A stretch of 58,461 nt of DNA from a virus. The stretch is taken from positions 1 through 58,461 of IMG/VR virus record IMGVR_UViG_3300044678_001332. The stretch is one strand, 5' to 3'. Shown piece by piece: positions 39,091 through 58,461 of the stretch (position 1 is the stretch's first letter; every line of letters starts with the position of its first letter). The notes below the pieces were generated by a model. It did not search any database and had not been told where the DNA came from. It was given only the letters and a program-made list of their open reading frames with translations. The position numbers were made by a program, and so were the translations under genes.

Positions 39091-42000
39091 ATGTCAGTAA
39101 GCAAGAATACTTGGAACAAAGGATTAAATTCAGATTTATCAAAACTTAAACCTCAACAGGATAGTTACCTTGATGCTAAAAACATCAGGGTAATTACTGA
39201 TGAAGGTTCATCTACACTTGCTATAGAAAACATTAGAGGTAATGTATTTAGTTTTAAATTACCTAAAGTCAATAATACTTATAAAATTAACTTTATTAAT
39301 TTAACTGGTAGTGTTGACATTACAATTTCAAGAGGTTTAAATTCAGAAACATTTACTATACCTAATGTTGAACAAAAGGATAATGAGTTTATAGCAAATG
39401 AACTTAATGCTTTAATCCAAGCATCAACTCTACCATATAAACAATATATTATTGCTTACTTTAATTCAAGATATTTAGTAGTATATGATTTTCTACCACA
39501 ATCTTTACAATCATTAACGCAAGAAATAACTATAACAACTGTTCCTGATTGTTCAGCATTAAGAACTAATGCTGTTGATAATCATACTATTCTTGGTTGG
39601 GGATATTATAATGATAATCTTGTTCTAATTAGTTGTAATGAAACAAGTAACTCTGAAGATCCTTCTGGTGAAGAAGGGTTTGTATGGGATGCAAAATATA
39701 TTTATTTAAATGATACTACAAACAGTATTGAAAATATTGATGGTAATTATTTAAATCCAGCTTTTCATTTAAAGTATGCAGGTAAACTAAATCTATCTAG
39801 ACAGTATGCTATCAATAAACATTTAAAATGTAGATATGAAAGTACAAATACTGTAAGAATAGTTTGGACTGATTGGTATAATAATTTAAGAAATATGAAT
39901 ATTGCTGACCCTCAAGTTTGGGCTACAGTAGAAGAGTTATTATCTTATTTACCAGCACACTTACCACAGAAACCTATTGTAACTAATATTATAAATGGTG
40001 GTGGTATACCATCAGGTAAAATACAATACTTCTATAAACTATTTACTAATCAAGGTGCTGAAAGTAGTTATTCACCATTAAGTAATTTATTAATACTTAC
40101 AGGTGCAGCAGGTACTAACTTTGCTGGACCTGGTAATCCTCCATCAGGAAGTACAGCAATTGGTAAATCTGTACAAATAACTTATTCTGGAATAGATACA
40201 AGTTATGATATTATTAGAGTAGGATATGTTATTTATCAAACTCCTGATTTTCCAGAAGCTTTCTTTTTTGATGAAAAGCCTGTACCTGATGATGGAGTAT
40301 TAGTTTTAGTTCATAATGGTAATGAAAATGATATACCATTAGGATCAGCTACAGAAATAAATAATCTTAATAGACCACCAGAAGTATTTAAAACTATTGA
40401 TGTTGTAAGAAATAGATTGTTTGCTGCTAATGCTAAAACTAAATACTTTGATTTAGATGGAGAATTTGATTCTAGAGTTTATAGATATAATTCTTCTCAA
40501 GTAGCTGATTTATATAATAATGATGATACTTTTGGTACACCATCTGTACAAATAGATTATACTAATCCAATTCCTACAATAACTATTGAAGGAACTACAT
40601 TTACTCCTACTACTCAGCAAGAAGCATATGAAATATTAACTCAAGATATACCTGATACATTTGATTTAATTAATCCATTTAATGATGAAAACCCAGATGC
40701 ATCAGTAAATCCATTCTCTAATGGTAACTGGATTGCTAATTCACAGTTTAAATATCAGAGTGATGGTACAACAATAGGTGGATCAGGACCTAATATATCA
40801 TATGAGTTTGTTTATGAAACTAATATTGCTCATACAGGTAATACATATTTAAGAGGTAATATAAGTATTAATCCAAGAATTGATAGCAATGGTAACTATA
40901 TATCAGAGTTATCTGATGGATATACTTACATGGGTGGTAATAATAATTATTTCCAATCTCACAAAAGTCCTGTATTTGAAACATTGTTTACAGGATATGC
41001 TAGAGGTGAAGTATATAGATTTGGTATTTTATTTTATGATATATATGGTTATCCATCATATGTTAATTGGATAGGTGATATTAAGTTTCCATTTGCTAAT
41101 GATGATAGTGGTGACTTTGGTTTAACAGCACCTACACCTAATACTCCATCAGGACCATGCTTTATAGTTATTCCTGATCCTGAAAGAATGCCTGGAGGTT
41201 GGGATATGTTTAATGCTTTTGCATATAATAGTATAGAGTTTTCATTTGAACCATCTGGTACAGTATTCTTTACATGGAATCCTACACCAAGTAATAATGA
41301 TATACCAGGATTTGTAGCAGCATTTAATGATCCTTCAACAGGTAACACAGGTGGATTAAATGCTTTTGATCCAGGTGATGGTTCTATTATTATACAAGGT
41401 GCTAATGTTAATCAAGATATGCAAATTTTTGCAGATGGAATACCTTTTATAGCTCCATCTCAATTTGAAGATTATACTTTTTCTGCACCTACTAATGATG
41501 TTGTTTTAAAACAATTAGGTATTAAACTTTCATTAGATACATCTACAGACCAGTTTCAAGCTATTAGTGATAAGATATCTGGATGGTCTTATGTAAGAGT
41601 TAGAAGAAATTTAGAAAATAAAAGTAAACTTGGTACAGGATATTTACAACCAACCTTTGCAGGAAATATTGATATACCTAGTGGTGTAGGTGATTATTCT
41701 ATAATGCCTTATGTTAGAGATTATAATAATGATGTTAATGCTCCAACAGCATCTAGTAGCTTTTTATTTAATAGATGGGGATTTGATATAGTTACAGGTA
41801 ATGGAGGACAACTTCCATATGAAAGAATTAGATTAGGTTTTCAAATATTTAATTCTCCTAACTTTTTATTACAACAAGTAGGTCAATTTGCACAAGATGA
41901 TTTTATAAGACTAATAGGTAGAACTGAAAAGAAAGCATATAGAGTAGAATACTCCACACAAAACTCAAGTATATTATCTCCATCATTTATTAACTATGGT

Positions 42001-44015: not shown

Positions 44016-47000
44016 ATGGCTGAAAAAAATTCACTCTGGAAAAACATTAGAAAAAAAGCAGCACAAAACAAAAGAACTGGTGCTACACCTAAAAAACCTA
44101 CTAAAGAAATGCTTAGGCAAGAAAGGAAAATTAAAGCTAAAAAATATTATGCGGGTGGACCTATAGGTGAAGGTGATGATAAAAATAAAGCATTAAAAGG
44201 TACTAATGATACATTAATAGCACCTACGTTAAATACACAAATTGTGGAAGAAGAAGCTCCACAATGGATGAAAGATAAAGAAACTATTAGACCTGATGAA
44301 ATTAATTTTTGGGAAAGTTTTAATCCTAAAAAATGGGGATTAAATGATTATTCAAATTATAGTTCTTTTAATTCTGCTTTTAGAAATGCTAGAGAAGCTG
44401 GTGAAGATGAGTTTGTATGGAATAAAGAAAGATATAATACTAATTTAATACCTAAAGATATTAGTGATCAGTATTGGGATTCTAAAAAATTTATACAAGA
44501 TTATTATACTAATGAACCTTTTATTCCATTAGATACAAACTATTTTGATCTACATGATTTTAATGATAAACTATCAAAAGATAAATATGGATATACTTGG
44601 CAAGAATACTATGATAAAGTATCAAAAACTCCAGTATATTCTAAAGACAGTGGAAGATCAGATGAAGAAGGAAAGATTCTGGATAGTTATTTTGATACTT
44701 TAGGTTTATTAAGCAGATCTGGTTACTATAGTAGTCTTTCAGATAAAGAAAAATCTGATTATTATACTTACCAAAAAAGTAAGTATGTAGACGCTTTAAA
44801 TGATCCAAATTATTATTTTTCAATTACATCTCAACCAAATCCTAAAAACCGAGTTTTAGGATATCAACATAGTGGTGATAAAAAACTATATGCAAGTAAT
44901 ACTGGTAATAGAGAAGATTTTACAACATTTATTCATGAGCTTTCACATAAAGGGGATTCAAAAAGTAGATCAAGCTATAATAATGAAAGTAACAGAATCC
45001 CTACAGTAGATACAGATGCACTTAATAAGTTTGGTAATAAACTTTCTCAAAAAAGATTTAATTATGTTAGTGATCCTACTGAAACAGAAGCTAGAAAAAT
45101 GTCTACTCTTTATTTTATGAACAAGGTTCTTAAAAAAGATATTAGTTCTGGAAAAATAAAAAATAAAGATCTTACTGAATTGTATAATCTTTATAACTCA
45201 GAAGGAGGATATTGGTCCTCTAAATCTATACCTGGTGATGTAAGAGATTTATTAGAATTATATAAATATCAATGGAATGATTTATTAAAATATTTAAATA
45301 ATGATTTTTCATATTATAAGCCTGTCCAAAAAGCTAAAGGTGGACCTACAGGTAATGACGAAGATCCATTTAAATCAAAATTAAATCAAGGTCAAACTGT
45401 AGGTAAAACATCTCAAGATTGGTTAGCTAACTGGGTACGAAGTCCTAAATTTGCCGAGAGATTAAATCAAAACTTTCCAGCTCCTGCAAGTGATCTTGAA
45501 AAAAAAATATATGGTAATAAAGAAGCTAGAGAAAGAGCATCAGCTGCTAATTTAAAAACTATTAATAAAAGAATACCTGATGTAATAAGTGACATATATG
45601 ATACTAATTTTTTATATAATACAAATCCAGAAAGTAATACTGGACTTTTAAATACATATAGAAGTAGATTAGGAGATCCTAAATCTATTAGAGACTTTGA
45701 TAAAAACATGTCTACTAATCCTCAAGGATTTACTGATCAAGATGGTAGAATTATTATTACAAATGAAGCTAATACTCAATATGGTCCTCAATCAGTTGGA
45801 GTACATGAATTAACTCATAAAGTATCAGAAGGTGATAAAACATTAGATAAATTATTTAGAGGTAAATTTCAAACACCTAGTCCTGATAAAATTGATGCTA
45901 ATTATAAGAAAGATGAAATGTATCCTTTCTTAATGCAAATGAGATTTGATAATAAATTTCAACCAGGAGAAGAAATTACTCCAGAAAGATTAAAACAAAT
46001 TAGAGAGTCAGGACCTAATAATCATTTATTTAGATATTATAATGATGATGAAATATCTAAATACTTAAATACACTTGCAAGTAATCAGACACAAGCACCT
46101 ATGCAATATGCAGCTAAAGGTGGATATATGTATGCAGAAGGTGGTGATGGTGAAGATGAACCTGTAACATTATATAAAAAAGCTTATTATAATCCTGATC
46201 AAGATAGAATAATTCCATATGCTGGTAGTCAAGATAATGAATACTATGTAACACCTGATACTCCTCAAGGTATTGATTTTGAAAGAAGACTTCCTGAACT
46301 TGAAATAACAGATGATTATAATTCAACAGAAGATTATTATGGTAATAAAAGGTATATTCCTTCTGAAACAGGATTTATTCCAAATCCAAATTATAAACCA
46401 TTAGCATCAGGTAGAGCTGAACCAACACTAGGTCCAGTTGAAGCTGCTTTATTTGCACCTGTTGCAGGAGCTGTTGCAGGAACTATGGCATCTAAAGCTG
46501 TTCCTGCTGTTGTATCAGCTTTAGAATTACCTGCAGTAGTAGGTGGTAGAACTATACCTTTGTTAACTGGAAATAATATTTTAGGTGTAACAGGAGGAAT
46601 AACTGGTGCTAATATGCTAGGATCAGATATAAATAGTGGTTACTATACATCAAATGCATCTATTGAAGATAAAATTGCAAGAGGTTTAGAAACAGGACTT
46701 CTTATAGGAACTTCTCCAGGTATGTTACCAGCAATGGGTTCGGCATATAAAAATGTTAAAAACTCTTTAGGTAAAAATAAAGAATTATTATCTAATTCTG
46801 CGTCTAATCAATTACCTCCACCACCACCAGAAACATTTAATATAATAGATGGTTATGTTCCTGGTAGTTATGTACCTGATTATGCATCTCAATTTACTCC
46901 ATTAGAAACTTTTAATAATTCAAAATTTTCTCTTAAAGATATTAATAATAAAATTAAATCTTTAAAAAATATTACATATAAAGGTAAATCCATATTTAAA

Positions 47001-50000
47001 AATAAAAAAATTGGACACTATGATGAACCATTAAAAAATGATTCTTCATATGAAACTTGGAAAAAAACAGTTTTAGGAGAAAATGCTGATAGTGTAATAT
47101 CATTACAAGAATTTAAAGATGCTCATAAACAAAGTATAGAATATTTTAAAAGTATTGGCGCACCTCTTACTACAGGAAAAGAACATGGTTTGTTTATAAA
47201 AAACATACTTGCTGATAGAATACCAAATTTTACTTCTCTTCAATTTGATGATAAAGGTAGAAGACTTATATTTGATCCAGATATGTATGGTTCAGATATA
47301 CAACCAGCTGAATTGAGACAAATGGAAAAGTTTATTACAGGTGAGGGATATGATATTACTAAAATGACTCCTAAAGAAAGAATGTTAATGGAAGCTTATG
47401 CTCATGGATATGATACTTCATTAAATGAAGTATTAAGAGGTAGTAGTCAAGGTCCAGTTTCTAAATATTATTTAGAACAAGGTCAAATATTAAATGAAGG
47501 TATTTTAAAAAATAAATTTCAAAATCCATCTTTTGTAAGAAGAGGTGTACAATCAGATTATACTGTAGAACTTTTAGACCCAATAACATATAAACCAACA
47601 GGAGTAACTAAATTAAGATCTGAATTAACTAAAGGTGATACTTTTATAGATAAATCATTTTTATCAACTTCTGCAACACCTAGTTATTGGGGTCCTACAG
47701 AACTTTCAGAATTAATAGAAATACCTGGAGGATCATTACAATCTTTTGCAGTACCTGAAGCTGCTACTGCAACACGCTTTAGAGGTGAAAATGAAGCTAT
47801 ATTACCTACTGGTTTAATTAGACAAGTAATTGATAACAATCTTCACAATCATCCAGAATTTTTTGATTGGAGAGCAAAATTTAGAACAAAAATATTAAAT
47901 CCTTACGAAGATGGTGGTACTATTAATCCATACATGTATTATGCAGGTGGACCAATGCAATATAAAAGAGGTGGATTACTTAAAGATATAGGTTTAGGTG
48001 TTGCTGATTTTGCATTAAGTACTATTGGTGGTGTTACTGGTATTAAATCAATGAAAGATATTGTTAATGAAAAACAATATTCTAATGATAGATTTGATGC
48101 AGGTGCAAACTTTGCAGGTAGTCTTGGAAGTACTGCTTTAAAATTAATACCTGTTACAGCACCTATTGCAAATGCTGCAGGTGTGGTTGGTGGTGCAGCT
48201 AACAAAGCTTTTGGTATTGATGCAGCAAATTATAATCCTAATCAAGAAGTAAGTGACTTAGAAAAAGCAGGTAATATTGTTGGACAAGCTGGTAATGTTG
48301 CTAGTATGTTTATGGGTAGTACGTCAGGTGTATCAGAAGATGCTGGTAAATTTATGCAAGGTGTAGATAAAATAAATCAATTTGGACAATCACCTGCAGG
48401 TCAACTTTTAAACCAAGGACTATCTTTTGAACAAGGTGGTGATATAAATAAATTTAATAACTTTACAAACTCTATGAGAGACAGATACAACAGTTATAGA
48501 AACAAGTACTCTAGAGGAGGAAAGGTTCAAGATAATGCTGAAGAAAAACTTGAATATTTTGGTATGACTAAAGTACCTAATCATTCAGGGTTTCATTATG
48601 AAAATCCTAATGGAGGTTCATATGGAGGAACAAATGCTTCATTTGAAAAAAATGAAATTGTTTTACATGCTAAAGGTGGTCCTACTCCAGGACCTGGAGA
48701 ATTTGTTTTTCCTTCTGAAGTAAATGGTCAAAAAAACAGACCAGCATTTCTTGAATTAGATAAAAATGGTATGCCAATTCCTTTAAACATGACTATAGCT
48801 CAATTTGTAGAAAGAGAAGTTAATAAAGGAAGTGAATTTAGAAAAGAAAATTCTTTAGGAAGAGAAAGAGTAGATATGGCTAATCAAAAAGCAATGGACA
48901 TGGTAGCTTATTATGATCAACTTGATCAACAGCAAGCACAACAAAAAGAAATGATGGTTAATGGTGCTTTACAATATGCAGCTGCAGGTGGTAAGATAAA
49001 TAAAGATATTGAAAAGATTTTAAATGATGATATTCAAAGTTATATTAAAGCAGATAATTATTATGCTTATGGTGGATATCTTCCTAAAAATAAAAAATTT
49101 AACATGCCTTACTCTAATGGTGGTAAACTACCTAAAGAAGTTTTAAGAGCAAGAGTTCAAGCTCACATGTCAATTAAAGAAGCTAATTCTTATGTAGATC
49201 AATATGCTAATGGAGGATCAATGGATCCACCAACTGCTAAAAGAAGTTATGTAAAGCAAGGTTCTAATAGTATGCTAGGTAATAATTTAAATAATACTGA
49301 GTTTGGTTCTAGAATTATAAATGAATATGGTAATGGATTACCTAATGATACTTCTTATATTTATCAATCTCCTACTGAAGATTATTTCTACAATACAGGG
49401 CAGAATACTCAAAATGGTAAACCAGTATCTAATTATAACTCAGGTTCTGTAGCACCTTTTAGTGCTAATGTATATCAAGATAGAATTAAAAGATTAGCAG
49501 GTTATGCAAATGGTGGTCCTGTAGTATCTAATGTAAATCAAGACTTTGGTTTATATGCACAGAACAGAGGTGGTATGATGATGGCTAATGGTGGTATGAT
49601 GCCACAGAATGATAGTATGTCTAAACAAATAGCTGCTGCTTTGCAACAAGGTGCAGATCCTCAACAATTACTTCAACAATTACTTCAACAGTTAGTTAAG
49701 TCAGGAATGGATCCTCAACAAGCTCAAGCAATGTTAGAAAATATTATGGGTAGTATGCAAGCATCACAAACTCAAGCTCCTATGATGGCTATGGGTGGTG
49801 AAATGTATGCTCCTGGTGGATTCTTTGATAATTTACGTTCTGATTTTAACCATGGTAGAAGAATGGCATTTAACAAACCTTATAGAAATGCTTATAACTT
49901 AGCTAAAGGTTATAATACTATTAATCCTAAAAATTACCCAAATGTTTTTACAGAAGGTAATGGACAAGTAGGAGGTGAAGATTATGCTGGTTTATATCCT

Positions 50001-50726
50001 ATGACACAAGATGAAGCTACACAATACCAAGGTTATGACCCTACAAAAGTTACACCTTCTTCTACTACTAAAAGTGGATTACCAGTAGGTAATGAAGATA
50101 TATTTGGTAATGATAAATTAGGAAAAGGTTTAGCAATAGGTCAAGCTGCAATTCCATTAATAGAAGCAGGTTATCATTTGTTTAATAAACCTAAACATAT
50201 TAAAGCACCTGTTGTACAAGATGCAACTGTTAATTATGAACAATCTAGAATAAGAGATCAAAGACAAACAAATTTGACTAGAAGTTCTTATTTAAATATG
50301 TTAAGAAATTCAGGTATGTCAGCAAATCAATTTGCTGGTAATGCTAAAGATTATCTTTTAAATTCTGCTGCAGAACAAGCAGGTAGAGATGCAACAAGTA
50401 TTCAAAATGAACAAAATCAAAATGCTGTTGCTAGAGCACAAGCTGAAAATTTAAATGCTCAAAATAGATTTGCAACTGATCAATTAAATTATGAGATAGA
50501 TCAAAACAGACTTGGTAATATATTTGGTGCATTTAATAATGCAGCTACTATGGGAATGCAAGGTTACAATGATATAAAACAAAATGAATATGATAGAATG
50601 AGAGCATTGAGTACACAATCAGAAAATGTAGTACCTGTAAATGTTAATGGTAGAATATATCAAGCAACAAAAGGACCTGATGGTTATTACTTTAATGGTA
50701 AAAAAATAGCAGAATTTGGAGTTTAA
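44016..50726 (+). CDS. Giant virion cargo polyprotein with ADP-ribosyltransferase and HExxH domains
   Basis: A 2236-residue protein after the tail gene, where crAss-like phages keep proteins that travel in the virion and enter the cell. Seen in order: HELSH (307-311) and HELTH (597-601), zinc-protease-like HExxH motifs; an Ala/Gly hydrophobic stretch near 808-870; an ADP-ribosyltransferase (about 1090-1300) with Arg1175/Arg1176 (FVRRGV), STS at 1217-1219 and Glu1258-x-Glu1260 (RGENEAILP); a second hydrophobic stretch near 1320-1400; Gln-rich and coiled-coil parts. The R, STS, E-x-E set is the signature of Arg-directed enzymes such as phage T4 Alt. Short AKGG/YAGGP-type motifs punctuate domain borders. 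Proteolysis and host-modifying roles are inference. Confidence 0.8.
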   Translation: MAEKNSLWKNIRKKAAQNKRTGATPKKPTKEMLRQERKIKAKKYYAGGPIGEGDDKNKALKGTNDTLIAPTLNTQIVEEEAPQWMKDKETIRPDEINFWESFNPKKWGLNDYSNYSSFNSAFRNAREAGEDEFVWNKERYNTNLIPKDISDQYWDSKKFIQDYYTNEPFIPLDTNYFDLHDFNDKLSKDKYGYTWQEYYDKVSKTPVYSKDSGRSDEEGKILDSYFDTLGLLSRSGYYSSLSDKEKSDYYTYQKSKYVDALNDPNYYFSITSQPNPKNRVLGYQHSGDKKLYASNTGNREDFTTFIHELSHKGDSKSRSSYNNESNRIPTVDTDALNKFGNKLSQKRFNYVSDPTETEARKMSTLYFMNKVLKKDISSGKIKNKDLTELYNLYNSEGGYWSSKSIPGDVRDLLELYKYQWNDLLKYLNNDFSYYKPVQKAKGGPTGNDEDPFKSKLNQGQTVGKTSQDWLANWVRSPKFAERLNQNFPAPASDLEKKIYGNKEARERASAANLKTINKRIPDVISDIYDTNFLYNTNPESNTGLLNTYRSRLGDPKSIRDFDKNMSTNPQGFTDQDGRIIITNEANTQYGPQSVGVHELTHKVSEGDKTLDKLFRGKFQTPSPDKIDANYKKDEMYPFLMQMRFDNKFQPGEEITPERLKQIRESGPNNHLFRYYNDDEISKYLNTLASNQTQAPMQYAAKGGYMYAEGGDGEDEPVTLYKKAYYNPDQDRIIPYAGSQDNEYYVTPDTPQGIDFERRLPELEITDDYNSTEDYYGNKRYIPSETGFIPNPNYKPLASGRAEPTLGPVEAALFAPVAGAVAGTMASKAVPAVVSALELPAVVGGRTIPLLTGNNILGVTGGITGANMLGSDINSGYYTSNASIEDKIARGLETGLLIGTSPGMLPAMGSAYKNVKNSLGKNKELLSNSASNQLPPPPPETFNIIDGYVPGSYVPDYASQFTPLETFNNSKFSLKDINNKIKSLKNITYKGKSIFKNKKIGHYDEPLKNDSSYETWKKTVLGENADSVISLQEFKDAHKQSIEYFKSIGAPLTTGKEHGLFIKNILADRIPNFTSLQFDDKGRRLIFDPDMYGSDIQPAELRQMEKFITGEGYDITKMTPKERMLMEAYAHGYDTSLNEVLRGSSQGPVSKYYLEQGQILNEGILKNKFQNPSFVRRGVQSDYTVELLDPITYKPTGVTKLRSELTKGDTFIDKSFLSTSATPSYWGPTELSELIEIPGGSLQSFAVPEAATATRFRGENEAILPTGLIRQVIDNNLHNHPEFFDWRAKFRTKILNPYEDGGTINPYMYYAGGPMQYKRGGLLKDIGLGVADFALSTIGGVTGIKSMKDIVNEKQYSNDRFDAGANFAGSLGSTALKLIPVTAPIANAAGVVGGAANKAFGIDAANYNPNQEVSDLEKAGNIVGQAGNVASMFMGSTSGVSEDAGKFMQGVDKINQFGQSPAGQLLNQGLSFEQGGDINKFNNFTNSMRDRYNSYRNKYSRGGKVQDNAEEKLEYFGMTKVPNHSGFHYENPNGGSYGGTNASFEKNEIVLHAKGGPTPGPGEFVFPSEVNGQKNRPAFLELDKNGMPIPLNMTIAQFVEREVNKGSEFRKENSLGRERVDMANQKAMDMVAYYDQLDQQQAQQKEMMVNGALQYAAAGGKINKDIEKILNDDIQSYIKADNYYAYGGYLPKNKKFNMPYSNGGKLPKEVLRARVQAHMSIKEANSYVDQYANGGSMDPPTAKRSYVKQGSNSMLGNNLNNTEFGSRIINEYGNGLPNDTSYIYQSPTEDYFYNTGQNTQNGKPVSNYNSGSVAPFSANVYQDRIKRLAGYANGGPVVSNVNQDFGLYAQNRGGMMMANGGMMPQNDSMSKQIAAALQQGADPQQLLQQLLQQLVKSGMDPQQAQAMLENIMGSMQASQTQAPMMAMGGEMYAPGGFFDNLRSDFNHGRRMAFNKPYRNAYNLAKGYNTINPKNYPNVFTEGNGQVGGEDYAGLYPMTQDEATQYQGYDPTKVTPSSTTKSGLPVGNEDIFGNDKLGKGLAIGQAAIPLIEAGYHLFNKPKHIKAPVVQDATVNYEQSRIRDQRQTNLTRSSYLNMLRNSGMSANQFAGNAKDYLLNSAAEQAGRDATSIQNEQNQNAVARAQAENLNAQNRFATDQLNYEIDQNRLGNIFGAFNNAATMGMQGYNDIKQNEYDRMRALSTQSENVVPVNVNGRIYQATKGPDGYYFNGKKIAEFGV

Positions 50727-50738
50727 AAAATATAAGAT

Positions 50739-52979
50739 ATGAATTTATACAAGTTTCAACCTAGACAATATGTAGATGTATTACCTGATTTACCATTAGA
50801 ATGGTTACAAGGTCAGGTTGATAAAAAACAGAATGTTATTAATGCTCAAAGAGATGAGCTTAATAAAGCTGCTGAAAACTATTTAAAATTAAACTATGGA
50901 ACTTTTGGTAGAGATCTTTATGATCAAATAAATAAAGACTACCAAGGAAAGTTTAAACAAATGTCAGAAGACTTGTTAACTAGACAAGACATTCCTGGAG
51001 TAGCATCATCATTTTCTAATTTAGTTAGAGAAGCAGCATTTGATCCTAGAATCAAAGATCTTAATAAAGAATTTGCAGCTTATCAGAAATATTTAGAAAC
51101 TAAAATGAATCCTGAATTTCATGGTGCTATAGATTTAACTCAATATGGAAAACAAATAGGTGAAGACTTTAATGTTGATCAAGCTATTGCACAGTATCCT
51201 TTAGTTAAATATGAAGATAGTATTCAACCTTATGTTGCAACAGCTGAGAAATTTAAACCTTATAAAGATGTTAATACTGATAAGTGGGTATTTAGTAATC
51301 CAATATCAGGTGAAACATTTGTTCGTAATACTAAAGAAGAAATTGAACAAGTTTCTAAACCAAGATTACAAGAATATTTTGAAAGTCAGTATTATAATTG
51401 GAACATGGATGCTAGATCTAAGTATGATAAGTTAAAAGGTACTAATGTAGATTTAAATCAATTTGATCCTAACTTTAATTTCAAAGATGAAAATTTAGGT
51501 AGAGATATTTGGAGAAAAAAGTATTTACCATATTTACAAATGGCTTATACTCAAAGAGATGAAGAAACTGAAGTTACACCAATGGGTGGAGGAAAACCAA
51601 CATCTTCAAATAATCCTAATAAACCACCAGCTGATGTTAAATTAGAGTATAACATGATGACTTCAATGTATGGTATTGGTGTTTTAGGTAATAGATTATC
51701 TACAGGTGAAGAAATAAGAACTTATGATGATGCAATAGGTAATATTCAAGATCATAAAAATAGAATAAGTACATTAGTTCGTCAAATGTTTGAAGCATCT
51801 AAAAAAGGTGATCATGCTACAGTACTTACTTTAGATAAAGAAAGACAAAATCTAATGTCAGATTTAACTACTTGGGAGTCTTGGCAAAAACTTATTGAAG
51901 AAGATTTGTATAATAAAAATTTAGGACAAGATTTAAGTAATGCTTTAAAACTTGAAAAAGATTGGATTGAAAGTCATTCAGGTCAAATTGCAGATTTTGG
52001 TGCATTAAGTTTAATTTATAAAAAACCAGTTGAACAAATAAAGAATGATATTTTTTATAAAAGAGATACTACATATGAAGGAGTTGATTATGATGAAATA
52101 GATGCTTTCTTAGAAGAAGCTAGTAAAATAAGAAGAGCTAATTTAAAAGGTGATGCATCTAAGCTTTATGAAAGGTGGGAAAAATATTTAAACTATCAAA
52201 CACAAGGTACATCATATCAACCTAATAATGATGCTTCTAGACAAAGATTAGATCAAATGGTTTTATCTTTAATTACTTCTGGTAAAAAACCTTATAACTT
52301 ACAGACTGATAAAGAAGTTTCTGATTTTAAAGCTTTACAAGAATATTTATTAAAATTGCAAGCTGAAAATGGTTCATTTAATACTAAAGGTTTAAGTACA
52401 GAAATTCTTTTAGATGAAGAAGATGGTCCTGTATTAATATTACATGGATTAAATATAGATGGTAGTAAAGGAGAAGATATTCCTAATTCTATAGAATTTG
52501 ATATTAGAGATACACCTAGTTTATTAAATGTTCTTTATGAAATAGATCCTAGTAGACAAACTCGCAATGCTTACTTTGTTGAAGCTGCAAGATCATTAAA
52601 AGAAAATAAAAACAAGAAGGGATCATTTACTTTAAATTCTTATGGTAATGTTCAAGAAGAAGTTAATTTCTCAAGAGTACCTATAGGTGATGGTAAATAC
52701 ATGTTTAAAGATTCAGACAATGTAATGTATGCTAGTTTAAATGATTTAATTCAAACTAAAACACTAATTGCTGCTGAAGAGGATAAAAATATTGAAGTAG
52801 CTAGACAAAAATTAAGTCAAGATTTTAATATGGCTGTTCAATCAGGAGATGTTGAATTAATTAAACAAGCTATGGCTAAAGCTCAAAATTTTGAAATTCT
52901 TTTAGAGAAAGAACTAAAACAGAAGCGAGAGGGAAAGGGCAAGCCTCAGGTGAAAGGTCCGTTCAACCTGGGGCAGTAA
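50739..52979 (+). CDS. Virion cargo protein, zero-frame product of a frameshift pair
   Basis: A 746-residue protein starting MNLYKFQPRQYVDVLPDLPL. It is mainly helical and polar (KKQNVINAQRDELNKAAENY, KGDHATVLTLDKERQNLMSD), without membrane helices or enzyme motifs. The beginning (PRQYVDVLPDLPLEWL) is a pattern I associate with crAss-like cargo proteins. The last 20 codons are GC-rich and unusual (ending VKGPFNLGQ), because they contain a -1 frameshift signal. Ribosomes that slip at codons 732-733 would continue into the following frame and make about 1385 residues. Confidence 0.75.
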   Translation: MNLYKFQPRQYVDVLPDLPLEWLQGQVDKKQNVINAQRDELNKAAENYLKLNYGTFGRDLYDQINKDYQGKFKQMSEDLLTRQDIPGVASSFSNLVREAAFDPRIKDLNKEFAAYQKYLETKMNPEFHGAIDLTQYGKQIGEDFNVDQAIAQYPLVKYEDSIQPYVATAEKFKPYKDVNTDKWVFSNPISGETFVRNTKEEIEQVSKPRLQEYFESQYYNWNMDARSKYDKLKGTNVDLNQFDPNFNFKDENLGRDIWRKKYLPYLQMAYTQRDEETEVTPMGGGKPTSSNNPNKPPADVKLEYNMMTSMYGIGVLGNRLSTGEEIRTYDDAIGNIQDHKNRISTLVRQMFEASKKGDHATVLTLDKERQNLMSDLTTWESWQKLIEEDLYNKNLGQDLSNALKLEKDWIESHSGQIADFGALSLIYKKPVEQIKNDIFYKRDTTYEGVDYDEIDAFLEEASKIRRANLKGDASKLYERWEKYLNYQTQGTSYQPNNDASRQRLDQMVLSLITSGKKPYNLQTDKEVSDFKALQEYLLKLQAENGSFNTKGLSTEILLDEEDGPVLILHGLNIDGSKGEDIPNSIEFDIRDTPSLLNVLYEIDPSRQTRNAYFVEAARSLKENKNKKGSFTLNSYGNVQEEVNFSRVPIGDGKYMFKDSDNVMYASLNDLIQTKTLIAAEEDKNIEVARQKLSQDFNMAVQSGDVELIKQAMAKAQNFEILLEKELKQKREGKGKPQVKGPFNLGQ
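52931..52974 (+). promoter_or_regulatory. Programmed -1 ribosomal frameshift signal (GGGAAAG + hairpin)
   Basis: GGGAAAG at 52931-52937 sits in the correct register (G GGA AAG). After a 5-nt spacer, a 9-bp hairpin follows: 52943-52951 pairs with 52966-52974, with one G-U pair and a 14-nt loop. The overlapping A AAG GGC (52934-52940) is a second possible slip site. The 59 nt from 52922 hold 34 G/C, far above the surrounding DNA. GGGAAAG is the lambda G/T tail-gene slippery heptamer. Confidence 0.8.
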
Positions 52980-54895
52980 GTAGCTTTAACAAAGCATTAG
53001 GATCAGTAGAACAAGACCCTAAAGAAGGTTATAGATCAACTAACCCTAACTCATCAGCAGTTGGTAAGTATCAACATATATGGGGAATACATGGAGAACC
53101 ACAAAAGGGTCAAACAATTTCTGAAATTGAAAGAGTAACAGGAGTTAAATCAAAAGAAGATTATTTAAATAACCCAGAAGCTCAAGAAAAATATCAGGCT
53201 CATTTAGAAAGTCATTATAAAAGAAATGTACCTGGATTAAGAAAAAGATTTCCTGGAGTAACTAAAGGAATTGATGATGAAGTATTAATGGCTCTTCAAC
53301 ATCTTTCAGGTTTAGGAGATGCTAGAATATATTTAGATACTTTAGAAAAAACTAAATCTTATGATGCTGCTCAACAAGCTTTAAATCAATCTATAGAAAA
53401 AAGAACAGGTGAGGCTCCTCCAACTAATAAAACAGTTTTTGAATATTTAAATAATTTTTCTGAAAATTTAGAAAAGGATAATACTCCTAAAACACCTCAA
53501 ATATTTGCTCCTAAAAAACAACCTCAATTAAATCCTAATCCTACATTTACTGCATCACCATTTGCTACACCTAAAGTTACTCAAACTAAACCTCAACCTC
53601 AAGAACCTGTTGATAGTAGATTTAGAGTATTACCAGAAGTTCTTCCTAAAATAGAACAACCTAAAACTGTTACTGAAACTAAAGATCCTAATTTTGTTGA
53701 AAAGGTTTGGACATACCTGTTTGAAAGTGATGTTCCTATTAAAGAAACTAGTAAAATAAAAGAAGCAGCTGATGGTAATCCTGTAGAAGATGAGGAGTTT
53801 GTTGCAAGTAATGATTCTAATGTAGCATTAACACCTAAAGCTACACCTAAATTATCTAATGTTAGAAGAGTAACTGAAGATCCAAAAATTAAACAAAGAA
53901 AAATAGAAGATGAAAATTTTACAAAAAATATTGGATATTCAAAAGTTAATGATAAAGTTTATAGAGGTAAGTCTCATAAAAACTTAGATTTAGGTAGTTA
54001 TTCTAAAATGATTGTTGATATGTCAGATGGTATAACAGTAACTTATCAACCTAGAAATGCTAGAAAAAATGATAGAACAGAAGTTAATAATGCAATAGCT
54101 ATTACTGATTATTTATATGACTTTGACTTTACAAATAATTGGTATGATAAACAAGCTGATTATCAAATTACAAAATTAAAAGAAAGCTTATTTAAACCTA
54201 AAGACTGGGAAAAAAGAACTTATATTAACGCAGAAGGTAAAAGAGTAAAATATGGTCCATGGTCTAAAAATTGGGATAATGCTTTAGATGGTAGAAAATT
54301 TGTAACTGTACGAGAACCTTTAGGTAATAATAAATATAAAATATCTATTAAACCTATTGATAATCTCACTGAAAAAGATTTTGAAGAGTCTACAATATAT
54401 AGACAAGGGTACGCTAAATTATCTGATCTTGATATAACACCTGATCAGAAAAAAATTAAATTATTTGCTAAAAAAGATGCTTTTGTTGGTCAAGGACTTC
54501 CTTTTAGAGATGAAAATAATAAAGAACATGGACTAAGAGTAAGTGGAGGTAAGGGTAATGTGAGTGTAAATTTAAAAGGTGAAAATGTAAAAGGATATTT
54601 AAATATATCTAGCCTTAATCAATTTGGTGCTTATTTAGGAGGTACTGTTACTATTATATCTGAAGATGGTAAAATAGCTAAAAAAGTTAGTGGTAGTTTA
54701 AAAGACATTTTAGAAACTGCTTTCTATATTAAAAAACAAACTGGTAGTAAAGAAGTTTACTTTTTACAAAGCGATGCAGGTAGTATGAATATAAAAGCTG
54801 ATGCTAATAATGGTAAAATTACACCTGCTCAATTAGCAATTTCTAGAAACCAAGAACCTCAAGCAGGTGCTGCAGAGATACTTTTAAATGAATAA
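52937..54895 (+). CDS. Frameshift extension: lysozyme-like domain plus long C-terminal part
   Basis: An open -1 frame (stop-free from 52895) with no ATG until 53288, which would cut a domain in half. Translation from the slip site gives about 652 residues. First comes a transglycosylase/lysozyme-like domain: SVEQDPKEGYRSTNPNSSAV followed by GKYQHIWG, which fits the catalytic Glu and the NP-SSAxGxYQ loop of this fold, and ALQHLSGLGDARIYL. Then a Pro/Lys/Gln-rich linker and a C-terminal domain (SKMIVDMSDGITVTYQPRNA, KKVSGSLKDILETAFYIKKQ, VYFLQSDAGSMNIKA). As a fusion, cargo would carry a wall-opening enzyme. Lysozyme activity is inferred. Confidence 0.72.
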   Translation, partial: GQASGERSVQPGAVSSFNKALGSVEQDPKEGYRSTNPNSSAVGKYQHIWGIHGEPQKGQTISEIERVTGVKSKEDYLNNPEAQEKYQAHLESHYKRNVPGLRKRFPGVTKGIDDEVLMALQHLSGLGDARIYLDTLEKTKSYDAAQQALNQSIEKRTGEAPPTNKTVFEYLNNFSENLEKDNTPKTPQIFAPKKQPQLNPNPTFTASPFATPKVTQTKPQPQEPVDSRFRVLPEVLPKIEQPKTVTETKDPNFVEKVWTYLFESDVPIKETSKIKEAADGNPVEDEEFVASNDSNVALTPKATPKLSNVRRVTEDPKIKQRKIEDENFTKNIGYSKVNDKVYRGKSHKNLDLGSYSKMIVDMSDGITVTYQPRNARKNDRTEVNNAIAITDYLYDFDFTNNWYDKQADYQITKLKESLFKPKDWEKRTYINAEGKRVKYGPWSKNWDNALDGRKFVTVREPLGNNKYKISIKPIDNLTEKDFEESTIYRQGYAKLSDLDITPDQKKIKLFAKKDAFVGQGLPFRDENNKEHGLRVSGGKGNVSVNLKGENVKGYLNISSLNQFGAYLGGTVTIISEDGKIAKKVSGSLKDILETAFYIKKQTGSKEVYFLQSDAGSMNIKADANNGKITPAQLAISRNQEPQAGAAEILLNE

Positions 54896-54908: not shown

Positions 54909-54931
54909 CATAATAATCATTATTGTATAAT

Positions 54932-57900
54932 ATGGATGAATTAGACAAATTGTTAGCAGAGGGTAAGATTACAGCCTCTGAATATGCTAGACTTGTAAGA
55001 CAACAAACAGAAAGCCAAAGTGCAGATTATAGAAAGAGTGAAGTTTTAGAAGCTGCTGCAGGTATTCAACAATTTTATAAATCACATTTAGGTATAGATC
55101 CTAGTGACATTGCTTCTGGTCAACCAGAATATCAAATGTCAATGTCACCTGAAGAACTTGAAACTTATACTTCAAGAGGTATTACTCCAAGTACTTACAG
55201 AGATTATGAAGATGATAGAGCTGAAGCTCAGTCATTTGCTGACAAACTTGGAAATGGTTTAACTAAACTTATTGGTAAATCTGCTACTGCAGTAGCTGGT
55301 GGTATTGGTATGGTACCATCAATAGCAGCTAATGTTGCAGGACAGTTAGAGGATATAGTTAATGGTGACAATACTTCATTCCATGAAATATATGATAATT
55401 TTTATTACAGAGCATTAGATGAAGCTAATGCAGCAATGGATGAAGCATTACCTCATTATGTTACAAGAGAAGAAGAAAATGCTTCTCTATTAAATTCATT
55501 AGGTACTGCTAACTTTTGGACTAATGACTTTTTACAAGGTGCTTCATTTGTTATAGGTGCAATAGCAACTGAAGGTTTAATGACTCTTGGTGCAGAAGCA
55601 TCAGGTCTTAGAAACTTAACTAGAACATTAGATGCTGTAAAAAAAGGAACTAAGGTTGATGATATTGCTGGGTTAATGGGTAGGTCAGCAACTGCTCAAA
55701 CAGGTTATGAAGCTGTTACATTAGGTAGACAGATAATAACAGGTGCTGGTTATGAGTCTTCAGTAGAAGCATTATCTTTTGTTAAAGATGCTGAAAGACA
55801 ATGGTTAGATGATTATAGATCACAACACTTAGAAGAACCTACTGAAGAAGAATATGCTAAAGCAATGGAAGAAATTTATTCAGTTGCTAATGGTGTATTT
55901 GGAATGAATATGTTAGTTGTTGGTACAACTCAAGCTAAAACCTTACCAGGATTATTTGCACCTAAATTAGCTAACTCAATTAGAAGAGTATTAGGTAAAG
56001 GAGAAATAGCTGAAGCATCTCAAATAATTCAAACATCTAAACTATCTGCTAAACAATTAGATAGAGCTGCTAAAAACTTAGGTAAAACAGTTGATGAAGT
56101 AAAAGCAATACCTAACATAGCTAAAGAAGCTACTTATAGTAAATTAGGTAAGATTACAAGTAGAACTGCTAGAGGTTTAGAAGGTGCTGTATTTGAAGGT
56201 GGACAAGAAGGTTTACAGAAAGCAATTAGTTATAGTGCATTAGATTACTTAAATGATAGAATGGACCCTGCAGCAAATGAAGACTTTATGGATTCATGGA
56301 TGTATGGATTAACTAAAGCTTTTGGTAATAATGCTGAAAGTTGGAAAGAAATATTTATTGGTGCATTGTTAGGTTCTGTAGGTGGACCAGGTGGTAAAGG
56401 TGGATGGCAAGGTGGAATTTATGAAGGTTTTAGAGACAGAACTAAATCTGAGAACTTTCAAAATGTATTAAACCTTGCTAATAATTATTCTAAAAACTCA
56501 GAAGGTATTTTAAATAATTATTTAAAGCATTGGAACCTAACTTTAAATCTTCAAGATAAAAAGGACAGGGCTTATGATAAGAATGACATGTATGACTATC
56601 ATTCTCAAGAAGCTAAAGAAGTTTTTAATTATTTAAACTTCATGAAGAAAATGGGAAGACTATCAGAGGTTGATGAACAACTTAGTGATAGTCTTAACAA
56701 GTTAAATAAGAAACAATTTGAAGAACTGTATGGTTATAAAAACTTAACTAATACTGAATTTACAAAACGTAAAGCAGAATTGTCTCAAAAGATAGCAAGA
56801 GAAATTAGTGATGTTTCTGAGTCTGCAGATAAAGGTGCTTCTATTTACAGAGGTGGAGATCAGGATGTTTTAGATGGTATTGCATATACTATTTATGCTC
56901 ATAAGAATGCTGATAATAGAGAAAGTAAGATAGCAGAAGAAGTTAGTAAGCTTGTAGGAATTATAGATCCTAGAAGTTTAGTTGAAATATCTAGAGATAA
57001 CCAAAGATTAAAATTAAAAGATGGTTGGTTATACACTTATAAAAGTAAACTTAAAGGTTTAAAGGCTGCTAAAAAAGCTTTAGAAAACAGAATGTTATCT
57101 GGAAGTGTTAATAAAAAAGATGTACAAATAGATGAGCTTGAAAAGAAAATTAAACAGAAAGAAAAAGAACTTAAAGCTCTTTTGAAAGAAGAATATAATA
57201 CAAGAAAGGCTTTAAGAAAATCTCCAATAACTCCAGAATATGAATTAGATTATGATGAGTTTGAAGAAAAGGTAAACAAGCAAGCTGAGTTTCTTGAAAA
57301 ACTTGAAAAGCATTATGAAACTGATGGTATAGATAAATCAGAAATAGAACAGAAACTTGCTGACCTTAAGAAATTAGCAAGAGATAGAGAAAAGTATATT
57401 GGTGAATTCAATAGACTTCTTACATCAGAAGGTCTTAAAGAACTTGAAACTAGTATTGAAGGTTTAAGAAAAGAGTTTGCCAAAGAGCAGGTTGATGCTA
57501 CTACTATGGCTATAATGGAAGTTGAAAGATCAAAAAAAGCTTCTCAAAGAGTTTATAAAGCACAAGAACTTGCATTTAAATTAAGAGCTAAAAGACTTTC
57601 AGGAATTGAACAGCCTATTACTGAAGATCTAAATGCTGAAACTATTGATACTCTATCTGATAATGCAAATCAGTATTATACTCAGATGATAGCTATAGCT
57701 AACAGTATAGTTGGTGCTAGTCAAAATAATGATGATAAGATTGCAGCATTAGAAAGTTTAATTAAACAGTTTGCTGAAGAAGTTGCAAATGTTCCAGAAG
57801 AATTAAGAAGAGATTATGAAATCCTACTTGATAGATTTAAAACACAAATAGAAAGTTTAATTAATTCTTTAAAGAAAACACCTGGTAGTAAATCAGGTCA

Positions 57901-58461
57901 AGTGTTATCTAGTATTAATAAACTGTTTAATCTATTTAAACCTAAAGAAGATAGAAACTCTAATAAAGGTAAACTAGAACAATTAATAACTAATGGTACT
58001 ATTCTTTCTACTATTAGAAGTGAAATGTATTTTGAATTAATACCTTATCCTGAAGGAGGATCATTAGTAGAACCTCATGATGAAGATGGTTCTGTTATAA
58101 AATCTGATGTAAGATTTAGAAAAGGTATAAAGATAGGTGATCAATACTATGGTATTAAAGTAGCTTATAAACTACATCCTAGTAAATATGTAAACTTTAC
58201 AAATGAATCTGGTCAAACAGAAACTCTAACTGAAGTTACATTGGGATATATTAATGACCCTAAAAGAATTATGGTTAAAAAACCAGATGGTTCTTATGGT
58301 GAATTAAATATTAATGATCCTAATGAAGTAAAACAATTAAACTCTGCATTTGTAAATCCAGTAACAAATGAATTTACAGAATCAGGAAAAGAGTTTGTTC
58401 AAGAATATATTAAATTACAAGCAGGATTTGAAAAACTATTAAAAGCTTTTGGAGATAAAAA
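54932..58461 (+). CDS. Giant virion protein (partial, runs off right edge)
   Basis: Starts MDELDKLLAEGKITASEYAR and stays open for at least 1176 codons to the edge. It contains Gly/Ala-rich hydrophobic segments (KLIGKSATAVAGGIGMVPSI, FLQGASFVIGAIATEGLMTL, then AWKEIFIGALLGSVGGPGGK-like stretch near residue 480) and long charged coiled coils (roughly residues 700-860). The hydrophobic segments in an otherwise soluble protein are typical of internal virion proteins that insert into the host membrane during ejection. In related phages the virion RNA polymerase lies in this gene neighbourhood. No polymerase motif is visible in the part present. Confidence 0.65.
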   Translation, partial: MDELDKLLAEGKITASEYARLVRQQTESQSADYRKSEVLEAAAGIQQFYKSHLGIDPSDIASGQPEYQMSMSPEELETYTSRGITPSTYRDYEDDRAEAQSFADKLGNGLTKLIGKSATAVAGGIGMVPSIAANVAGQLEDIVNGDNTSFHEIYDNFYYRALDEANAAMDEALPHYVTREEENASLLNSLGTANFWTNDFLQGASFVIGAIATEGLMTLGAEASGLRNLTRTLDAVKKGTKVDDIAGLMGRSATAQTGYEAVTLGRQIITGAGYESSVEALSFVKDAERQWLDDYRSQHLEEPTEEEYAKAMEEIYSVANGVFGMNMLVVGTTQAKTLPGLFAPKLANSIRRVLGKGEIAEASQIIQTSKLSAKQLDRAAKNLGKTVDEVKAIPNIAKEATYSKLGKITSRTARGLEGAVFEGGQEGLQKAISYSALDYLNDRMDPAANEDFMDSWMYGLTKAFGNNAESWKEIFIGALLGSVGGPGGKGGWQGGIYEGFRDRTKSENFQNVLNLANNYSKNSEGILNNYLKHWNLTLNLQDKKDRAYDKNDMYDYHSQEAKEVFNYLNFMKKMGRLSEVDEQLSDSLNKLNKKQFEELYGYKNLTNTEFTKRKAELSQKIAREISDVSESADKGASIYRGGDQDVLDGIAYTIYAHKNADNRESKIAEEVSKLVGIIDPRSLVEISRDNQRLKLKDGWLYTYKSKLKGLKAAKKALENRMLSGSVNKKDVQIDELEKKIKQKEKELKALLKEEYNTRKALRKSPITPEYELDYDEFEEKVNKQAEFLEKLEKHYETDGIDKSEIEQKLADLKKLARDREKYIGEFNRLLTSEGLKELETSIEGLRKEFAKEQVDATTMAIMEVERSKKASQRVYKAQELAFKLRAKRLSGIEQPITEDLNAETIDTLSDNANQYYTQMIAIANSIVGASQNNDDKIAALESLIKQFAEEVANVPEELRRDYEILLDRFKTQIESLINSLKKTPGSKSGQVLSSINKLFNLFKPKEDRNSNKGKLEQLITNGTILSTIRSEMYFELIPYPEGGSLVEPHDEDGSVIKSDVRFRKGIKIGDQYYGIKVAYKLHPSKYVNFTNESGQTETLTEVTLGYINDPKRIMVKKPDGSYGELNINDPNEVKQLNSAFVNPVTNEFTESGKEFVQEYIKLQAGFEKLLKAFGDK

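Follow-up and report, generated by a model that had tools for sequence, protein, structure and literature searches.

The locus described here raises the question of how a phage could translate a lysozyme-like domain whose reading frame offers no start codon ahead of its putative catalytic residue. It lies in IMG/VR virus record IMGVR_UViG_3300044678_001332, a metagenomic sequence of 58,461 nucleotides (nt) that was analysed as a whole and is referred to as the window. Towards the 3' end of the window, a gene in the presumed virion-cargo operon of an environmental crAss-like phage overlaps an open -1 frame:

50739–52979, plus strand: 0-frame gene, an open frame in the slot of cargo protein 2, coding for a short form of 746 amino acids (aa)
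52937–54895, plus strand: -1-frame extension of 652 aa, an open frame without ATG, GTG or TTG before the Glu and GKYQ of the lysozyme-like domain

On the basis of sequence and structure prediction, we consider it probable (about 0.72) that a programmed -1 frameshift adds a lysozyme-type domain to a minority of an ejected cargo protein.

The overlapping reading frames

The -1-frame open reading frame (ORF) comprises 653 codons including its stop, and with the 0-frame gene would yield a fusion of 733 + 652 = 1385 aa. As codon shuffling of the segment (2,000 rounds) gave off-frame open runs of at most 123 codons, a run of this length is far beyond chance. Past the slip site the frame reads VSSFNKALGSVEQDPKEGYRSTNPNSSAVGKYQHIWGIHG, with the catalytic Glu at codon 24 (53009–53011) and GKYQ at codon 42 (53063–53074). 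A preliminary description of this DNA had noted a lysozyme/transglycosylase pattern after the slip site, and its elements (Glu, GY, NPNSSAVGKYQ) are indeed all found in the -1 frame. As to the limits which it gave (52979–53440), position 52979 still belongs to the 0-frame stop, as its final base; the -1 frame is read from 52937 onwards, and the folded domain extends from about 52985 to 53473.

In the window, the first ATG, GTG or TTG of the -1 ORF is the ATG at 53288 (codon 117), past the Glu; in the related contig L001 it is an ATG at codon 103, likewise with no such codon before the Glu. Gene callers blind to frameshifting will list the enzyme as a truncated ORF; the mechanical call for this DNA does start at 53288, past the active site. 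The same observation bears on whether the lysozyme ORF could be a separate gene, translated from an internal start or, around the 0-frame stop, by termination and reinitiation. Two further lineages, L012 and L017, carry a -1-frame GTG overlapping the stop region, and in a third, L007, a TTG lies four codons ahead of the Glu, which would suit such a gene; the window and L001 offer no such codon, and a separate gene leaves unexplained the invariant heptamer, the fixed 6-nt spacer and the covarying stem 5' of the stop. We regard it as very unlikely.

The frameshift signal

In the 0 frame, the junction reads CGA GAG GGA AAG GGC AAG CCT CAG GTG AAA GGT CCG TTC AAC CTG GGG CAG TAA, and was resolved into the following elements:

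52931–52937, plus strand: slippery heptamer G_GGA_AAG in 0-frame phase, with the same sequence and phase in five lineages
52938–52943, plus strand: spacer GGCAAG, exactly 6 nt long in all five lineages, with varying sequence
52944–52951, plus strand: 5' arm of the stimulatory stem, CCUCAGGU, assigned by fold energy, covariation and a synonymous-recoding test
52966–52973, plus strand: 3' arm of the stimulatory stem, ACCUGGGG, assigned on the same basis
52977–52979, plus strand: 0-frame stop TAA just 3' of the stem, at the same stem-relative position in five lineages

Together these elements make up a -1 frameshift signal of textbook form. The ORF overlap holds a heptamer of the X_XXY_YYZ type in the 0-frame phase, and the downstream structure follows in all five lineages at 6 nt, within the expected spacing of about 5–9 nt. 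In E. coli, G_GGA_AAG counts as a highly shift-prone heptamer (PMC5009743). The stem of the window comprises 8 base pairs (bp), ends 3 nt 5' of the 0-frame stop and folds with -17.4 kcal/mol (z -2.4 against dinucleotide shuffles). When the two arms of the five sequences were aligned, 95.6% of cells were paired, with two-sided changes in 4 of 9 base pairs, and the covariation collapsed when the partner arm was slid by one column; as the arms were excised and joined by hand before alignment, the register is the analyst's choice. The native stems also exceeded in stability 2,000 synonymous recodings of the 0 frame, for which codons were sampled according to the usage of each gene (z -5.9 for the window, -5.9 for L001, -6.6 for L007, -2.5 for L012 and -4.2 for L017). 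A shared H-type pseudoknot, an optional feature of such sites, was not supported when complementarity between the loop and the 3' flank was tested against shuffles in the window, L001 and L007: L001 has 7 bp (1.5% of shuffles), L007 5 bp (10%), and the window none of note (68%).

Transcriptional rather than ribosomal slippage is a known alternative route to another frame and could in principle yield the -1 product. It usually needs long homopolymers. The longest homopolymers at this site are three G and three A, and its fixed spacer and stem suit ribosomal frameshifting, which makes the transcriptional route extremely improbable.

Independent lineages

Heptamer, 6-nt spacer, stem, stop and a -1-frame lysozyme-like ORF are shared by five divergent IMG/VR lineages, namely the window, L001, L007, L012 and L017. 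The lysozyme domains of L001 and L007 are about 50% identical to that of the window, and the -1-frame lysozyme-like ORFs of L012 and L017 23–26%. L001 and L002 are separate metagenome contigs that are identical over the junction and overlap. The metagenomic origin of the contigs would be in keeping with a sequencing or assembly frameshift, or with a decayed gene; such an origin is refuted by these independent copies, for the two frames overlap in the same way in all five lineages and in both contigs of one of them, and the -1 product is 51% identical to its homologue. Its probability is negligible. With conserved signals in five lineages and no ATG, GTG or TTG before the Glu in the window and L001, sequence evidence favours the proposal of the preliminary description that the domain is reached by -1 frameshifting.

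All of IMG/VR was scanned blindly with the pattern GGGAAAG N6 CCNCA N12-38 TGGGG NNN TAA. The scan returned six contigs, five of which carry the frameshift cassette: three were already known, one was a chance match, and two, L012 and L017, were new and had been missed by protein searches. With a relaxed pattern, IMG/VR yielded no further long 0-frame ORF ending at the site together with a long -1 ORF; the strict pattern gave 14 matches in the bacterial and archaeal genomes of GTDB, all by chance, and no further cassette. L015, a chance pattern match without the cassette, was rejected, and L008 and L009 are not cassette members. In gut crAss gp46 relatives, Cellulophaga phi17:2 and csAssE-Sib, the lysozyme motif was not found in the same slot.

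The lysozyme-like domain

The extension was divided into two parts:

52985–53473, plus strand: lysozyme-superfamily domain, assigned by AlphaFold model, structural match and invariant Glu
53474–54895, plus strand: further C-terminal region of about 470 aa, without a match in Pfam

An AlphaFold model of the domain, computed with eight sequences, reached a predicted local distance difference test (pLDDT) score of 86.4 and a predicted template modelling (pTM) score of 0.81. In VIA-align, its top match in the PDB was the lytic transglycosylase gp144 of phage phiKZ (3BKH; Z 9.0, 3.0 Å over 130 residues, 18% identity), and all 50 rows listed were lysozyme-fold enzymes or T4-lysozyme fusions (Z 7.2–9.0). 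The model predicts a lysozyme-superfamily fold with confidence. The catalytic residue of gp144 is Glu115 (PMC5406664); as residue 1 of the model aligns with gp144 residue 107 by the alignment range, Glu9 of the domain comes to lie near it. All nine sequences compared retain this Glu, and Glu, GxxQ motif and fold are kept across sequences 23–53% identical to that of the window. The lysozyme assignment of the preliminary description has thus held up on both counts that it had named, the predicted fold not being an unrelated one and the Glu not being lost in any of the nine sequences.

The domain also occurs in L003 and L004, two large IMG/VR contigs, and in L005, fused in frame to different proteins of the same operon region (L005 6900–8387, L003 5236–8211, L004 2470–6723). 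This suggests a mobile domain, and further that wall-cutting domains on proteins of the cargo region are not unusual, frameshifting being one route to them, at reduced dose. Long extensions are also found in L012 and L017, while L001 and L007 stop after the lysozyme domain; the C-terminal region of the window has a short, weak similarity to the L012 extension (28.6% over 63 aa, E 0.004).

Genomic context and the 0-frame protein

The window belongs to a crAss-like phage, as its muzzle, ring, TerL and major capsid protein homologues all match Crassvirales: the muzzle protein at 39091–44013 matches PF25731 (E 1e-127), ring protein 1 is identified by PF24228, phrog_6681 and phrog_11589 matches provide the terminase and major capsid protein evidence, and TerL is about 33% identical to that of crAss-like phages. 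The muzzle gene is followed, in this order, by a gene for 2236 aa, the 746-aa gene, the -1-frame ORF and a gp47 homologue, so that the overlapping frames are flanked by:

44016–50726, plus strand: cargo-1-like gene, 2236 aa, homologous to the upstream protein of L001, which matches crAss001 gp45
54923–58461, plus strand: homologue of crAss001 gp47, cut off by the end of the window and 24% identical over 745 aa (E 4e-23)

The upstream neighbour in L001 codes for a protein that matches residues 433–554 of crAss001 gp45 (E 2e-5), and residues 425–552 of gp45 form its portal-binding segment (PMC10172136). The gp47 homologue is the next gene in all five lineages. In crAss001, mass spectrometry detected gp45, gp46 and gp47 in virions, of which they are cargo proteins (PMC10172136). 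Flanked by a gp45-matching and a gp47-homologous gene, the 0-frame gene occupies the slot of gp46, cargo protein 2.

The 0-frame protein is homologous along its length to those of L001, L007 and L017 (26–31% identity; that of L012 is incomplete), and as a single query it found no matches in IMG/VR or the phage collection. Gene order argues for a cargo protein, one without detectable sequence homology to gp46: hhalign comparisons of the 0-frame family with crAss001 gp45, gp46 and gp47 and with a seven-member gp46 family were not significant, the N-termini of the 0-frame and gp46 families being aligned with an E of 0.5. In all five lineages, the C-terminus of the short form is a conserved tail, LG[QKRW]-stop, whose codons also make up the 3' arm of the stem.

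In the cargo-1-like protein, an ADP-ribosyltransferase-type domain with R, STS and ExE motifs was found at 47361–47816 (PF03496, E 1e-6; 28.7 bits, the cut-off being 23.4). Like T4 Alt, it could be injected and modify the host. The same protein has two HExxH metallopeptidase-like motifs, HELSH and HELTH, at 44934–44948 and 45804–45818, and one of these regions shows weak similarity to DUF6782, a family of putative metallopeptidases (E 0.17).

Weighing the interpretation

Several observations count against an enzyme carried on virion cargo by frameshifting. The 0-frame protein gave no match to the crAss cargo-2 profile PF25712 at E≤1, which crAss001 gp46 itself matches as a control, and its AlphaFold model is poor (pLDDT 52.8) and unfit for structure search; its presumed location in the virion accordingly rests on gene order. 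The term main cargo protein, used in the preliminary description, has the support of gene order, but the cargo-2 profile does not bear it out. The known lineages number only five. With uniform synonymous codons the stem effect was smaller (z -1.7 to -3.7), as such codons are GC-richer than the usage of these AT-rich genes, and the L012 stem is weaker under both schemes (z -2.5 with codon usage, -1.7 with uniform recoding). For the domain, Foldseek E-values were not significant; neither that of the window nor the other -1-frame domains exceed the threshold of any Pfam, NCBIfam or PHROG lysozyme family, and the window does not reach the curated cut-offs of Pfam SLT (PF01464) and Transglycosylas (PF06737).

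This lack of a curated profile match, along with the moderate Z-scores and the fact that a shared fold is no proof of function, would also be expected of a domain that is not a peptidoglycan hydrolase, but cuts another glycan or is an inactive binder. We think this distinctly unlikely, given the retention of Glu, GxxQ and fold in divergent sequences and the weak, sub-threshold matches of the in-frame relatives L004 and L005 (Leptolyngbya phage Lbo-JY46) to SLT and Rpf-type transglycosylases. It is also unlikely, though conceivable, that the frameshift is real and the domain acts at lysis, or the fusion in assembly, rather than as entry cargo of the virion. The closest structure, phiKZ gp144, is an endolysin (PMC5406664), and the identification of the 0-frame protein with cargo protein 2 falls short of proof; on the other hand, the domain's only coding sequence extends a gene lying between the cargo-1-like and gp47 homologues, and other crAss-like phages and a Leptolyngbya phage fuse it in frame to operon proteins of the same region.

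Proposed mechanism

If a frameshift supplies the virion with the enzyme, most ribosomes would finish the 746-aa protein, and a minority, held up by the stem that follows after 6 nt, would move back by one base on G_GGA_AAG and continue in the -1 frame, producing a fusion whose extension starts with the lysozyme/lytic-transglycosylase-type domain. Because both forms share the N-terminal 733 residues, we propose that the fusion is packaged beside the short form as ejected cargo, in a ratio that slippage would set. The few peptidoglycan-cutting domains per particle would then open the cell wall during genome entry. If there are at most about 12 copies of the short form, as estimated for crAss001 gp46, an assumed slip of 5–25% would give about 1–3 enzymes per particle.

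Relation to known systems

In retroviral Gag-Pol, a -1 frameshift adds enzymes to a fraction of the packaged protein and thereby sets enzyme copy number. We lean towards a similar logic in this DNA phage, in which a conserved frameshift would set the number of wall-cutting enzymes per virion as a fixed minority of a non-enzymatic ejected cargo; virus, protein and signal details are unrelated to Gag-Pol, and packaging is presumed for the window.

Frameshifting in phage structural genes is already known (lambda G-GT, T7 gp10). As in lambda G/GT, -1 slippage would occur close to the 3' end of a gene in the structural module and give a minority C-terminal extension. The GT extension of lambda binds the major tail protein, and neither G nor GT stays in the virion; the extension in the window, by contrast, is enzyme-like, lies in a presumed cargo gene and has a signal with a conserved 3' stem. 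T7 gp16 is a virion-associated SLT-type lytic transglycosylase thought to open the wall at entry. The virion-associated SLT-type domain of P1 Sit is likewise thought to do so (PMC9024508); in both proteins the domain is in frame and present in every copy, unlike here. Two C-terminal forms of one virion protein are also produced in T7/T3 gp10A/10B and in frameshifts to Ig-like domains (PMC5009743), but those extensions are Ig-like or non-enzymatic, whereas that of the window is of a wall-degrading type. phiKZ gp144, the best structural match, differs in being a stand-alone modular endolysin with a peptidoglycan-binding domain. In the open-licence literature, we found no report of a frameshift appending a wall-cleaving enzyme to a cargo protein, and none of frameshifting in Crassvirales structural genes.

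The Crassvirales, a very abundant order of phages, have an ejection machinery that is only partly understood, and the structural paper on crAss001 makes no mention of peptidoglycan or lysozyme (PMC10172136). If the interpretation is true, it would provide a concrete, testable entry enzyme for Crassvirales, and would mean that recoding can set enzyme stoichiometry in the particle of a DNA phage.

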